Assembly (NCBI GenBank): GCA_027596195.1
Contig: JADGJG010000374.1
Location: 1-22,089, forward strand
DNA: 22,089 nucleotides
Source of the DNA: Podochytrium sp. JEL0797
Lineage: Eukaryota; Chytridiomycota; Chytridiomycetes; Chytridiales; Chytriomycetaceae
Direction: 5' to 3'
Position numbers and translations under genes: made by a program. Shown piece after piece: positions 11,973-21,118 of the stretch. Position 1 is the first letter of the stretch. The number at the start of each line of letters is the position of its first letter. Under the pieces are notes generated by a model. That model saw nothing but the letters and a program-made list of their open reading frames with translations. It did no database searches and was not told the origin of the DNA.

Positions 11973-13623
11973 ATGTCCACCACATCCGCAGAATCTCTGA
12001 CCGTTCTTACCAACTCTGGCCTCTTTCCTGGTCTCGACCAGGCCCAATTGCAATCCCTTGCGGCCGAAATGCAGCTGGTCACCTTCCAGAAGGGTGATGT
12101 TCTTGGCCGCGAGGGTGACAAGGCAATCTACCTGTTCATGATCACCAGTGGTCTCGTGGACGTCGGCAAGCGCATCGATGACAACGACGAAGCCAGCGAG
12201 TCCGTCAAATTGATTTCCCTCGGCGTGGGCGACTATTTCGGCGAGAGCATGGTGAGCATTTAAATCACAGTGACGCGTATCTATTATTTCGTATTTATTC
12301 GTTTCGAATAGATTTCTGAGCGCAACATCAGCGCCACAATGACCGCAGCCGAAAACAACACCTCCGCCCTCCGTCTCGACAGCACCGCATTCGCCCACAT
12401 CCTCAAACAACACCCCTCCATCTCCACCAGCCTCATCAAGGGCCTCTCGCACCAACTCCGCACTTTCCGAAGCATCCTCACCTCCACCCTCGCCAAAAAC
12501 GCGTCCACTGGAAACCTCGCCGCCAGAACCATCGACATGGCCGTATTCGACTTCATGAAGCACGAGAAGGTCTCGTTCCAGCAATCTGTCGCAGACCTCC
12601 AATCGACCCTTCCAGACGGCGTTGTCCTGCGCGTCCACTACTTTGAAACCAAACTCACCCTTCAATCCGCGCGTCTCGCAGAAGGCTGTCAAGTCGTCTG
12701 CATCTTTGTGAACGACACGGCTTCAGCAGAAGTTCTCCACATTCTCGGCACGATGGGTGTTGAACTGATGGCTCTGCGTTGCGCTGGATTCGATATGGTT
12801 GATTTGAAGGCAGCCAAGGCCTTGAACATTGAAGTGTGTCGCGTGCCCGCGTACTCTCCGTTCGCGGTCGCCGAGTTTGCCGCCACCTTGGCCATGTCGC
12901 TCAACCGCAAGATTGTCCCCGCCTCCGCGCGTGTCAAGACGGGCAACTTTGGTCTTGCCGGGCTCGTCGGATTCGACATGCACGGGAAGACTGTTGGTGT
13001 AATCGGCACAGGTAAAAAACCATGCAACCCCGCATTTCCCTCACCATCAGAAACTCATCTTCGTTTCCACCACAGGCAAAATCGGTCAATGTTTCATCAA
13101 AATCATGCTCGGATTCGGATGCAAAGTCCTCTGTTTCGACGCGTACCCTTCCAAGGACGTGGCCACCTGGGAAGGTTGCTCCTACGTCACTTTGGACGAG
13201 CTCTACGCGCAATCCCGCCTCATCTCCCTCCACGCTCCTCTCTTCCCCGAAACCAAACACATGATCAACGCCACTTCCATCGCCAAAATGCAACGCGGCG
13301 TCCTCATCATCAACACCTCCCGCGGCGGACTCATTGACACCAAGGCCCTCATCGACGGTTTGAAATCAGGTCAAATCGGAGGCGCCGGACTCGACGTGTA
13401 CGAGAACGAAAAGGCGCTCTTTTTCGAGGACCACTCCGACAGTGTGATGGAGGATGACATTTACGCGCGGTTGATGACGTTCCAGAATGTACTGGTAGCG
13501 GGTCATCAGGCTTTTTTGACCGAGGAGGCGTTGGAAAAGATTGGGGCTGTGACGATGCAGAATGTGAGGGAGAAGATAGTGGAGGGGAAGACGGGTAAGG
13601 AGTTGGAGAATGTGGTGTTGTGA
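11973..13623 (+). CDS. Cyclic-nucleotide-binding-type domain fused to LdhA-type D-lactate dehydrogenase
   Basis: Three exons (11973-12251, 12312-13011, 13076-13623) join in frame to 508 residues. Residues 14-165 form a cyclic-nucleotide-binding-type domain: LFPGLDQAQLQSLA, FQKGDVLGREGD, LGVGDYFGES and a closing helix. From about residue 170 (DMAVFDFMKHEK) the protein is a full-length D-lactate dehydrogenase close to bacterial LdhA: IFVND, LRCAGFDMVDL (catalytic Arg), AVAEFA, Rossmann GVIGTGKIG with Asp in CFDAYP pointing to NAD, NTSRGGLID, LDVYENE (catalytic Glu) and GHQAFLTEEAL (catalytic His). It should reduce pyruvate to D-lactate with NADH in the cytosol. No signal or membrane segment is seen. 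Intron 1 lies inside the phosphate-binding cassette and intron 2 inside the Rossmann glycine loop. AATAAA lies 38 bases past the stop (13661). Confidence 0.9.
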
Positions 13624-13666: not shown

Positions 13667-13720
13667 TTCTGTTAAATATGAAGTTTTTTGTAATTAAACG
13701 CGAAAATAATAAACAGCTCG

Positions 13721-13836
13721 TCATGGTGAATGATGTGTATGCGCGGTTGCAATGACGTTCCAGAATGTTTTGGTCGCCGGGCATCAGGCTTTCTTGACGG
13801 AGGAGGCGTTGCAGCAGATGGGGCTGTGACGATGCA
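13721..13836 (+). pseudogene. 3' remnant of a second D-lactate dehydrogenase copy
   Basis: About 115 bp repeat the end of the D-LDH exon 3 (about 13441-13560) with obvious identity, including the codons for the catalytic-His segment GHQAFLTEEAL. A three-base difference near GCGCGGTTG adds an early TGA in one frame, and the copy lacks everything upstream. This is the trace of a former tandem duplication whose second gene has been almost entirely lost. Confidence 0.8.
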
Positions 13837-17008: not shown

Positions 17009-18292
17009 TCACTCGCCCTCATCGAGGGACCAAGGCACGTCAGGACCCAGCACCTCCACCCTTTCCGGAAACTCAAACCCAACATGCAAACGTCGACACC
17101 CTCTCAAATCGCATTCGCGAAGGCCGTCCAATCTTCCCAGAGATTCCGGAACTTCCCCCTCCAACAAATCGTTTCCCGCCAAATACAAAGACTCGAGTCT
17201 AGAGAGCTGACCGAGCTCGTGAGGAATGGGACCAGAGAAATTGCACCCTGCAAGGCCCAAATCCATCAACAGAGTCAGATTTCCAAACTCAGAAGGAAGA
17301 GATGCTTCCAGAGTCTTGTTTCCGAAAAGATTCAGAAATTTCAAGTTGAGGAGGGTGGTCAACTCGATTGGAATCGGGCCCGACAACGAGTTGTTCTTGA
17401 TGTAGAGGCTTTCGAGTTTTTGAAGCTGCCCCAGAGCCGATGGCAATGGACCCGACAACTTGTTGTTCGACAGCACAAGAACAGTCAGATTATTCAACTC
17501 GGCGAGAACGTCAGGAATCGAGCCGCACAACGCGTTGGTGTCCAAGTCCAGTTGTTGCAGCGACTTGAGGTTGGCAATCTCGACGGGAATGGTGCCAGTG
17601 AGGTTGCAGTCAACCAGAGCCAAACGGACAAGGATTTTGCTTTGAAGCAGGGCTGGCGGGATGGATGAATTGAGATCGAGCTCGTGATGGACAAAGTCTT
17701 CGGCGTCGTTAACTCCCCAACGGAATGACTTCAGGTGGTTCAGCTGTTTTTGAATGTAAACGGTTTGATACGAGAGTGGAGCACTCAGATAAACGATATC
17801 GGTAGCTGACGGCTCGGAAGATTCATGATTTTTCAGATCCGGTGCAGGGACGAAGCGTCGTATGTTGAGCAACGCAAACGACTTGGTCGAAATGGAGTTG
17901 CGAAAAGAACGCGAAAGACGGCGAAGCTTCCAGACGTCTTTTGGATAAACCCAACTCAACACCAAAGCCACAATCTCGGAAGGAAGACTTGTGAAGCGAG
18001 TGTAATGTTTTTTGGTCGGATTTTGGAGTTGCAGAATTTGGAGGGAGAGTTGGCGGTGTTTGTGGGTGATGGAGGACTCGACCGAAGAAAGGGAGGACTG
18101 GAGAAAGGATTGGAGTGCCGATTGAGCAGCGCTGGCCTCAGCCTTGAGGGCATCGATGCGGGTATTGGTTGTGTCATGGCTGGCGGCCAATTGGTTCATC
18201 TGGTTCTGGATCTGCGACTGGTTCGAAGCAACCTGGTTGAGGAGAGCAAAGAGGGAGGCCAGCGAAGGCTCGGGGGCCTGAGTTGGTTCCAT
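17009..18292 (-). CDS. F-box protein with plant-type leucine-rich repeats (intact member, copy 5)
   Basis: An uninterrupted 427-residue frame. The frame is open to 18403, but ATG 18292 is chosen because every other copy begins with the same M[DEN]PP..EPSLAS signature. Residues 10-90 are Q/S-rich and likely coiled coil. Residues 101-141 form an F-box (SLPSEIVALVLSWVYPKDVW, LSRSFRNSI). Residues 220-400 carry seven to eight repeats of the L..L.L..N.LSGPIP type. The C-terminus is acidic. F-box proteins usually recruit substrates to SCF (Skp1-cullin) ubiquitin ligases, with the LRR part selecting the substrate; that role is inferred. No intron, no signal peptide. Its neighbours on the same strand are broken copies of itself, so it is the surviving or founding gene of this local array. 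Confidence 0.8.
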   Translation of the reverse strand: MEPTQAPEPSLASLFALLNQVASNQSQIQNQMNQLAASHDTTNTRIDALKAEASAAQSALQSFLQSSLSSVESSITHKHRQLSLQILQLQNPTKKHYTRFTSLPSEIVALVLSWVYPKDVWKLRRLSRSFRNSISTKSFALLNIRRFVPAPDLKNHESSEPSATDIVYLSAPLSYQTVYIQKQLNHLKSFRWGVNDAEDFVHHELDLNSSIPPALLQSKILVRLALVDCNLTGTIPVEIANLKSLQQLDLDTNALCGSIPDVLAELNNLTVLVLSNNKLSGPLPSALGQLQKLESLYIKNNSLSGPIPIELTTLLNLKFLNLFGNKTLEASLPSEFGNLTLLMDLGLAGCNFSGPIPHELGQLSRLESLYLAGNDLLEGEVPESLGRLDGLRECDLRGCRRLHVGFEFPERVEVLGPDVPWSLDEGE

Positions 18293-18439
18293 GATTGATG
18301 ACGAATCTGAACAAGTTTTGCCTCCGGCCAAATCTGCCCTCCTCACTCCCTTGAGAACACACTGGTTCACGCGTGCGTTTCGAATTACGAGAAACTCGAG
18401 CATGCAAAACCGACCTAACGCCGTTCTAACGTAAAAAAT

Positions 18440-19400
18440 AGAGCCATTATTCTTATTACTGGAAAAAAAAAAGGTGTGGCCAATTCCACCGGAACTTCAC
18501 CACACAAGCGCTTATTATCAAACAAACCTAACTCTTCCGAACTCTCGAGTCCACCAAGCTCATGCGGAATCTCCCCCGACAGATTGCACCCTCCCAGCCA
18601 TAACTTTTGTAGCCGCTTCAGCCTTCCAAGCTCCCGAGGAATTGAATCACTCAGGTCTGAATTCTCGCCAAGGCGGAGATGTTCTAACTTGGACAAGTCC
18701 CCCCACTGTGGTGGAATCGACCCTGATACACCCGTTCCTCTGATCGCGAGGTATTCGAGTTCTTTGAGCTGCCCGAGAGCAGAAGGCAACAGCTAAAATT
18801 GCGACAACTCGCCGAGTTCACCAGGAATAACGCCACACATGACACAACGCGTTGAACTCCAAGTCCAACTCTTGGAGAGTCTTGAGATTCGCGATTTCAA
18901 CGGGAATCGGTCCAGAGATATTGCACCTCTTAAGAACTAGACGGACCAGAGCTTTTGAGACAAGAAGAGCCATTGGAAGTCCAGACTTGAGGTGGAGATT
19001 GTGTAGTCCGGGTCCAGTTCCCCAGCAGATGGTGTGTATGTGGTTTAGGTGGCGTTGGATGTATACGAGAGCGGGGCATTCAAGCATGCTATGCCGAGGT
19101 CGCACGGTCGGTCCAATGATTCGAGGCGCGCAGGGTCGGGTATGGGGAGAAAGCGTGAGATGTTGAGCACAGCGAACGACTTGGTCCAAATGCAATCCCT
19201 GAACGACCGAGAGACGCGACAAAGTTTCCAAGCATTCTTTGGATGAATCCAACCCAAGATTAATACCATCACCTCGGAGGGAAGATGGAGTCAGCCAATT
19301 GATTCATCTGGTTTTGCATCTGCGACTGGTTTGAAGCAACCTGAGTGAGGAGAGAAAAGAGGGAGGCCAGCGAAGGCTCAGATTCTTGAGGCGGATCCAT
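18440..19400 (-). pseudogene. F-box/LRR family relic, copy 6
   Basis: On the minus strand ATG 19400 opens MDPPQESEPSLASLF and the coiled coil, then about 65 residues are missing and the frame changes into the F-box (LILGWIHPKNAW, VSRSFRDCI). Near 19080 a second shift leads to VYIQRHLNHIHTICWG and the first repeats (CNISGPIPVEIANLKTL). A third shift plus a stop near 18795 precedes PSALGQLKELEYL and two to three further repeats. The copy ends abruptly at a plus-strand A-run near 18465 without the family C-terminus. Its end is about 150 bp upstream of the intact copy 5. Confidence 0.8.
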
Positions 19401-20019: not shown

Positions 20020-20815
20020 CCTCATCCAAAATTTATCCAATAATCTGACCACTCATCTGAGTCTCGATAACTAAACTCATATTCAGATCCATTCCCTTCC
20101 TCGTCTGCATTGTGAGAATCCCCAACAAGCACACGAAACTCGACCCTCTCACTCAACTCCAGATGCTCCAACGCTCCGAACCCAGCCGGAACCTTCCCGA
20201 CAATAACGAATTGTCGTACAATTCCAATTCCACCAGTTTTCCAAGACTATTTCCCTATTTTTGGCTCCCTTGGAATCGAACCACTCAAACCCTCATTCCC
20301 CTCCAACACGAGTCGCTTCAAGTTCGACAAGTCGCCATAACAGGACGGAATCGAACTTCGAATCACGAGATTAGAAAGCCGGCCCAGCGCCACCGGTAAT
20401 GGCCCCGACAGCAACCGGTTGTTGGACAGCACGAGACACGTTAAACTAGTTAATTTAGCGAGTTCATCGGGAATCGGACCGCACAACGCGTTCGTGTCCA
20501 AATCGAGTTCCTGGAGAGTCTTGAGATGTGCGATTTGTATGGGAATCGGACCGGTGATGTTGCACTTCATGAGGGCTAGGCGTACGAGACGCTTGCTCTT
20601 GAGGAGGGCGGTTGGGAACGGAGAAGTGAGTTGAAGAGTGTGGGGAACGTCGTTTTCGGATTCGTCAATCCCCCAGCGGATGGCGCTCATGTGGTTCAGG
20701 TGGAGTTGGATGTAGACGGTTTGGTATGAGATTGGGGCCTTCATGCAAACGATATCGATGTCGGAAGGTTTTCCCAAAGATTCGAGGCGCGTTGGATCAG
20801 GTGCCGGAAGCACAA
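20020..20815 (-). pseudogene. F-box/LRR family relic, copy 8
   Basis: The minus-strand frame from about 20815 begins just after the F-box (VLPAPDPTRLESLG), runs through YQTVYIQLHLNHMSAIRWG and five to six repeats (CNITGPIPIQIAHLKTL, LSGPLPVALGRLSNL, NEGLSGSIPRE) and stops at TAG/TGA near 20247. A shifted frame then continues the last repeat (LGKLVELELYDN) and, after one more shift, an acidic tail (GALEHLELSERVEF, then D/E/S-rich). The N-terminal coiled coil and F-box are gone and one repeat is shortened, so it is a pseudogene despite a 199-residue open stretch. Confidence 0.75.
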
Positions 20816-20846
20816 ACTTCCAGCCTCCAGCACCGCAGCCACGCAT

Positions 20847-21118
20847 CCGGGAGCGCGCTGAAACACTCAGATATCTTACATAATAGCGTAATATATGAAT
20901 TAACGTGCCGTGAGGGAAAGGGGGAGGCTTCCTTCTCCCAACTTCCCTCGCTGAAACACTGCATAAAACTTCTGCAAATCTGCGATTGCAAGCAAAATCA
21001 GAGCTCAGAGCCAGTTTGTGCGGAATCTATAATTATCTGTGAGGAAACTCTGAAGCCCTTTTAGTGTGTTCCTGGCGTGTGGTAGTGGCACAACCGTGTT
21101 CGGAACACTAGCGAGGAA
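20847..21118. other. Intergenic with a hairpin and short direct repeat
   Basis: No gene recognised. CGCTGAAACACT occurs at 20856-20867 and 20949-20960. Between them GAGGGAA (20912-20918) and GGGAG (20922-20926) can pair with CTCCC (20935-20939) and TTCCCTC (20943-20949) in a nested hairpin with an 8-base loop. Confidence 0.45.

Follow-up and report, generated by a model that had tools for sequence, protein, structure and literature searches.

A cyclic nucleotide-binding domain and a D-lactate dehydrogenase encoded by a single gene

The window, that is, the whole stretch of 22,089 nucleotides analyzed here, originates from Podochytrium sp. JEL0797, which belongs to the chytrid family Chytriomycetaceae. 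On the forward strand it carries a gene of three exons which, when spliced, encode a protein of 508 residues with one terminal stop codon. In this protein, a cyclic nucleotide-binding domain (cNBD) is followed by a complete LdhA-type D-lactate dehydrogenase (LDH). The gene and the sequence downstream of it are organized as follows:

11973..12251, forward strand: exon 1 (from splicing and Pfam)
12252..12311, forward strand: intron 1, 60 bp, GT..AG, within the ligand site of the cNBD (PBC); the spliced model equals the database protein
12312..13011, forward strand: exon 2, residues 94-326, 700 bp without a stop codon and with the domain junction inside; encodes the remainder of the cNBD, including its long C-helix (128-156), then a short linker and LdhA's first half as far as the NAD-binding motif
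13012..13075, forward strand: intron 2, 64 bp, GT..AG, within the GTGKIG motif
13076..13623, forward strand: exon 3, remainder of the Rossmann domain followed by the catalytic C-terminal part (R409, E438, H470) and the stop codon
13720..13836, forward strand: degenerate copy of the terminal part of the LDH gene, outside the enzyme; it matches 13444-13559 in 98 of 118 aligned columns

The fusion of the two domains in one protein is confirmed by several observations. The corresponding database protein (P0001, HDU98_007282) also has 508 residues and is 100% identical to our model over residues 1-185 and 160-508. Pfam profiles recognize the cNBD (PF00027, residues 36-127, 42.1 bits against a cut-off of 27.5) as well as both D-2-hydroxyacid dehydrogenase domains of the LDH part (PF00389, residues 196-497, 87.4 bits against 24.6; PF02826, residues 285-472, 172.2 bits against 25.1). 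The frame of exon 2 remained open in just 8 of 10,000 base shuffles of this exon, and GC3 is similar in the cNBD (0.74) and LDH (0.70) parts. The first-pass annotation, which had read a cNBD and an entire LdhA from one spliced frame, is thus borne out by the gene model, Pfam, and the database protein, and its borders for the first intron (12251/12312) were right.

Nothing indicative of an assembly or annotation artefact was found for the JEL0797 gene itself, although the assembly does contain a broken piece of a second copy on another contig (C795). Because the domain junction lies within one open exon and the same domain order is repeated across many independent genomes, this reading is refuted, and we consider its probability negligible.

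Distribution of the fusion in chytrids and prokaryotes

A search with the first 185 residues retrieved three other full fusions, from a second Podochytrium copy, Rhizoclosmatium globosum, and Siphonaria, which display 72-85% identity to the JEL0797 protein when aligned. With the LDH part as a query, 7,999 candidates were scored, 7,979 of them at E ≤ 1e-60; among the best 120 of these, on which the figures given here rest, 52 LDH-domain relatives combine PF00027 with LDH domains. Sixteen of the 52 come from 15 genomes which, judging by the source names, we take to be those of chytrids, and the chytrid range of the fusion extends from Chytriomycetaceae to Batrachochytrium salamandrivorans, Cladochytrium, and Nowakowskiella. 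The N-terminal stretch of a B. dendrobatidis protein (P0045) also aligns with the fusion and yields no Pfam cNBD match.

Some of the chytrid models among the same best 120 consist of the LDH only. Four of them (P0020, P0037, P0041, and P0042) begin at the counterpart of Met169, and P0020 has almost the same LDH part as the fused P0021, suggesting that these four models may be truncated. The shared start could also be taken to mean that the gene yields both the full fusion and, from the internal Met169, a shorter form with the LDH only. Given that the short models may simply be truncated, and that P0016 and P0045 have Leu and Ile, respectively, at this position, we consider two products improbable.

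To survey prokaryotes, genome contigs were scanned with an alignment of bacterial-side cNBDs, and the best 80 loci of 298 stretches encoding a relative were inspected. In 12 of these 80 loci (L024-L035; L032 is cut by the contig end), the cNBD and LdhA are encoded in one open reading frame (ORF). According to their titles, the 12 loci belong to Verrucomicrobia (n = 2), Auribacterota, Spirochaetales (n = 3), Bipolaricaulota (n = 2), Kiritimatiellota, Lentisphaerae, a metagenome-assembled genome (MAG) labelled Thermoplasmatales, and Mycobacterium attenuatum. Matches covering both domains are rare and patchy. For the genus of L034 they were found in at least 1 of 98 genomes; for the phylum of L027 the count is at least 4 of 198 genomes, 48 of which give a match at E ≤ 1e-90, and for that of L025 at least 2 of 194 (72 at E ≤ 1e-90). 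All of these counts are lower bounds because a diverged cNBD would not join the match. All 31 proteins retrieved at E ≤ 1e-20 with the bacterial-side cNBD of P0111 (query included) carry LDH domains; the search compared proteins of 0.55-1.75 times the query length, a range beyond which short lone cNBDs fall.

The fusion in M. attenuatum MK41 (L034, 6977-8455) resides in an isolate genome, and its presence in a single one of the 98 genomes searched in the genus suggests transfer. In a Bipolaricaulota MAG (L045, 7001-8449; not among the 12 fused loci), a cNBD match occurs together with an LdhA ORF in another frame, pointing to a frameshift or a split gene. No recurrent gene neighbours were seen by eye in crude ORF calls at the bacterial fused loci, and a conserved bacterial operon is, at this level of inspection, not suggested.

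The first-pass annotation had noted that LdhA enzymes normally stand alone and proposed a search for the domain order in other proteomes. The same order turned up in other chytrids and in scattered bacteria, and with 52 of the 120 best-listed LDH relatives and 12 of the 80 best prokaryote loci being fused, the fusion is not confined to the JEL0797 genome. The prokaryote loci and the bacterial-side relatives also rule out that cNBD-LdhA is an invention of chytrids only.

The D-lactate dehydrogenase part

For comparison of functional residues, we compiled a table of 61 fused rows, which leaves out P0060, P0096, P0120, and the locus L032 and in which P0110 and L026 are one protein in two rows. 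R409, E438, and H470, which we take to be the catalytic Arg, Glu, and His, are kept in all 61 rows together with the three GxGxxG glycines (GTGKIG), in agreement with the earlier claim that the catalytic and NAD-binding motifs are intact. The Asp following GTGKIG (D348 in Podochytrium) is present in 56 of the 61; the roles of all these residues are assumed from the D-LDH literature.

The best solved relatives of the LDH part are the D-LDHs of Salmonella, Escherichia coli, Pseudomonas aeruginosa, and Fusobacterium nucleatum. Among solved proteins, the best match has an E-value of 2.8e-95, and the first match of another activity, D-2-hydroxyisocaproate dehydrogenase, follows at 3e-52; the ten best fold matches are 44-48% identical. 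Judging by the Pfam cut-offs, the catalytic residues, and the closeness to LdhA over other D-2-hydroxyacid dehydrogenases, the LDH part is assigned to the LdhA type and would be expected to act as an NADH-dependent D-LDH. The likeness to the characterized enzymes encompasses the whole LDH part, including the Arg/Glu/His residues and GTGKIG with its Asp, whereas the matched chains have no cNBD. PMC4230899 describes the D-LDHs of E. coli, P. aeruginosa, and F. nucleatum as allosteric tetramers and reports that their allostery involves pyruvate, oxamate, fructose bisphosphate, or metal ions.

The JEL0797 genome carries at least two further LdhA-type genes (L107 on contig C98 and L108 on contig C176), with 56-64% identity in the matched stretches. 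PF00027 has no match on either contig; for the C98 gene the unfused state is uncertain because the contig ends ~0.4 kb upstream of it. Both genes resemble P0059 of Rhizoclosmatium hyalinum.

The ligand site differs between the bacterial and fungal sides

The 61 rows were divided according to the tree of the LDH part. The bacterial side comprises 28 metagenome and 11 locus rows (one locus is labelled archaeal), and the fungal side comprises 22 rows, namely, 16 chytrid rows, Nowakowskiella, and five metagenome rows; one of those counted as fungal-side, P0063, groups with the bacterial side by its LDH and with the fungal side by its cNBD. In PKA, an Arg of the PBC neutralizes the cyclic phosphate (PMC10959531). 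This Arg is present in 38 of the 39 bacterial-side rows versus none of the 22 fungal-side rows. Its position is occupied by Ile, Leu, Phe, or Met in all 16 chytrid rows and by His in the other six fungal-side rows (Nowakowskiella and the five metagenome proteins), and the PBC strings of P0003 and P0004 contain no Arg at all. Other features of the site have a different distribution: the PBC Gly is kept in all 16 chytrid rows, and the Glu of the GE pair is found in 15 of them (Podochytrium included), in 18 of the 39 bacterial-side rows, and in none of the six His-type rows.

Since the Arg is replaced, the chytrid cNBD-LdhA is probably no classical cAMP/cGMP switch. By the same token, the bacterial members, which keep the Arg, may plausibly be cyclic-nucleotide switches, with the reservation that more than half of their rows lack the GE-pair Glu. 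Canonical cAMP or cGMP gating of the chytrid enzyme as well, which would tie cyclase signalling to fermentation, nevertheless has to be weighed. The JEL0797 genome contains 33 PF00211 (cyclase) and 87 PF00027 matches, counted by stretch, so that cyclic nucleotides are probably made in this organism, and R. globosum, the source of the fusion protein P0003, has light-driven guanylyl cyclases, as described in PMC7655827. Against this stands the replacement of the phosphate-binding Arg in every chytrid row, and such gating of the chytrid enzyme is accordingly judged unlikely. Of the ligands named in the first-pass annotation, a cyclic nucleotide is thus disfavoured for Podochytrium.

The other ligand named there, a nucleoside, has a precedent in the PKA of trypanosomatids (PKAR), whose nucleoside-binding cNBDs, like those of chytrids, are without the cyclic-phosphate Arg (PMC10959531). 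Loss of the Arg combined with retention of the GE-pair Glu, as observed in chytrids, is part of the kinetoplastid pattern. However, according to the same source, the Glu at the position of PKA Ala202 is central to nucleoside specificity, and this residue is absent from the PBC strings of all 22 fungal-side rows; furthermore, hydrophobic residues replace the Arg in chytrids, as opposed to polar ones in kinetoplastids. With the trypanosomatid-type signature incomplete, both this class of nucleosides and cyclic nucleotides are disfavoured, and nucleoside control of the trypanosomatid PKA kind, itself a special case of a changed ligand, seems very doubtful.

Linker and structural models

In 33 of the 39 bacterial-side rows, the PBC Thr and the first LDH strand are spaced by exactly 65 residues, although the cNBDs of the 28 bacterial-side metagenome rows have a median identity of just 36.9%; in the 16 chytrid rows, the spacing varies from 66 to 96. 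This fixed spacing suggests a mechanical constraint in bacteria and its relaxation in chytrids. Among the chytrid rows, the median pairwise identity is 44.8% for the cNBD versus 71.3% for the LDH.

These observations also bear on the possibility that the chytrid cNBD binds no ligand and is a structural, oligomerization, or localization module, or else a decaying remnant, on an otherwise ordinary D-LDH. Such a fate would be consistent with the replaced Arg, with the faster evolution of the cNBD relative to the LDH, with the relaxed linker length, and with the missing Pfam cNBD match in P0045 of B. dendrobatidis. It is harder to reconcile with the near-complete retention of the PBC Gly and GE-pair Glu, with a Podochytrium domain which exceeds the Pfam cut-off, and with the full-length domains in the second Podochytrium copy and in the Rhizoclosmatium and Siphonaria proteins. 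We regard a ligand-free cNBD as a serious possibility, though less likely than not; for chytrids, regulation by some ligand appears only slightly ahead of it.

AlphaFold2 modelled the Podochytrium protein with a mean pLDDT of 87 and pTM of 0.63, predicting a beta-roll followed by a single long C-helix (128-156), a linker that is short and of low confidence, and a dehydrogenase fold; the loop 436-449, which holds the catalytic E438, is of low confidence. The 10-residue mean confidence of the linker is 57 in the chytrid model and 51 in a bacterial-side model (pTM 0.63 and 0.62, respectively). The low pLDDT in both models lends no support to a rigid linker and speaks against the mechanical constraint suggested by the spacing, and with these linker and pTM values, the relative placement of the cNBD and LDH is not given by the models. 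The 50 best-listed Foldseek matches were all dehydrogenases and hence uninformative on the cNBD.

Descent of the two domains

In an LDH tree of 93 chosen rows, 26 chytrid and four metagenome rows form one group of 30 (SH-aLRT 98) separated from the 63 others, which are a mixture of fused and unfused rows. A single clade of all fused and chytrid LDH-only rows is rejected on the LDH domain (p-AU 0.0002), which implies several fusions, losses, or exchanges.

The cNBD trees place the fused cNBDs on one side of a branch, with 47 of 119 rows and a support of 90 in one tree and 46 of 115 rows and a support of 92 in the other. The 115-row tree omits 22 near-duplicate and five long-branched rows of "other" cNBDs, P0087, and one own-genome row, and its own-genome cNBDs are 25 domains from fetched regions, out of the 87 matches. 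In both trees, the fungal-side fused cNBDs form one group (98 and 99). A single group of fused cNBDs is favoured by these trees, albeit not decisively: grouping of the fungal fused cNBDs with the 25 other cNBDs of the JEL0797 genome is not rejected (p-AU 0.29). The reading that chytrids and bacteria have a sensor lineage in common, which travelled with LdhA, is accordingly favoured but not proven.

Comparison with known cNBD proteins

In databases, some of the bacterial members go by the name "D-lactate dehydrogenase family protein" or "cyclic nucleotide-binding domain-containing protein", and no listed NCBIfam model passes its cut-off for the seven fused proteins tested. The best solved relatives of the N-terminal part are cNBDs of the PKG, PKA, and CRP types, which have the same fold; unlike these, the Podochytrium protein is missing the cyclic-phosphate Arg and is neither a kinase regulator nor a DNA-binding protein. 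Fusions of a cNBD with an enzyme as such are already known, for example, in the mycobacterial lysine acetyltransferase Pat, which is regulated by cAMP. In Pat, the N-terminal cNBD, a weak relative of the one studied here (4ava, NF058543), is likewise joined directly to the enzyme; yet the catalytic domain is an acetyltransferase, and the NCBIfam match of 35.4 bits is far under the cut-off of 460. The bacterial cNBD-LdhA proteins share the domain order with the chytrid ones and differ in the Arg and in the fixed spacing.

The first-pass annotation knew of no described cNBD-LDH enzyme, and we likewise found no description of such a fusion in the open-licence full texts of PubMed Central; in one open-licence text mentioning both a cNBD and a 2-hydroxyacid dehydrogenase, the two are separate genes. 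The cNBD-LdhA protein is thus no artefact, recurs in other genomes, and appears to be undescribed; its sensor site has changed in an unusual way, and its domain order is already visible in databases.

A putative sensor-gated D-lactate dehydrogenase

The explanation we find most probable, with moderate confidence, is that the protein is an intact NADH-dependent D-LDH with an N-terminal CRP/PKA-type cNBD serving as a regulatory module, the ligand of which has been changed or lost in chytrids. This assessment and those of the alternatives are not exclusive of one another. We infer that the module and LdhA have kept together for a long time, within a lineage that chytrids and bacteria have in common.

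With the cNBD joined to the first strand of an allosteric D-LDH, movement of the C-helix could shift cooperativity. In the bacterial members, binding of a cyclic nucleotide (cAMP or cGMP) would move the C-helix beside the LDH and thereby alter activity or cooperativity. In the chytrid members, the altered module would preferably answer to a different small ligand and otherwise act as a fixed assembly or inhibitory element. As the two other LdhA genes of the JEL0797 genome look unfused, the fused form would be a regulated isoform beside them. More tentatively, and with less confidence than in the regulatory module itself, cNBD-LdhA might represent an undescribed family of sensor-gated D-LDHs, gated by cyclic nucleotides in scattered bacteria, shared with chytrids as a unit, and re-tuned there to a ligand other than a cyclic nucleotide.

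If so, a signal or metabolite would directly set fermentation in a chytrid: with a sensor fold on the terminal fermentation enzyme, the fate of pyruvate and NADH would be determined without a kinase or transcription factor, and chytrid metabolism would gain a directly testable control point. Furthermore, the retention of the Arg on the bacterial side and its absence in chytrids offer a natural comparison for the change or loss of a cNBD ligand.

Neighbouring sequences and related proteins

The degenerate duplicate at 13720-13836 lies ~100 bp downstream of the LDH gene, which indicates that LDH sequence was duplicated here. Upstream of the LDH gene and divergent from it, the window encodes a C-terminal phosphohexomutase domain (PF00408; 10651-11133, reverse strand). 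On the same strand are an ORF with an F-box and leucine-rich repeats (LRR; 17012-18496) and a second LRR ORF (20250-21026); further LRR-like frames discerned by eye suggest an LRR cluster in the window.

The broken piece of the second fusion copy (L109, contig C795, 1432-1798) is 95% identical to P0002 over 96 residues and contains a stop codon. A PF04884-type gene lies upstream of this piece, and the annotation of protein P0005 extends into it; P0002 itself is not among the matches in the searched JEL0797 assembly.

Two other kinds of proteins deserve mention. In P0008 and P0009, a cNBD occurs with PF01326 (pyruvate,water dikinase according to one source), possibly another cNBD fusion at the pyruvate node. 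Finally, a set of proteins of ~800 residues with LDH domains (P0011-P0015, P0018, P0019, P0023, P0026, and P0028-P0031), some from Durusdinium or marine transcriptomes, score well above single-LDH matches at similar identity, as if they contained two LDH units.
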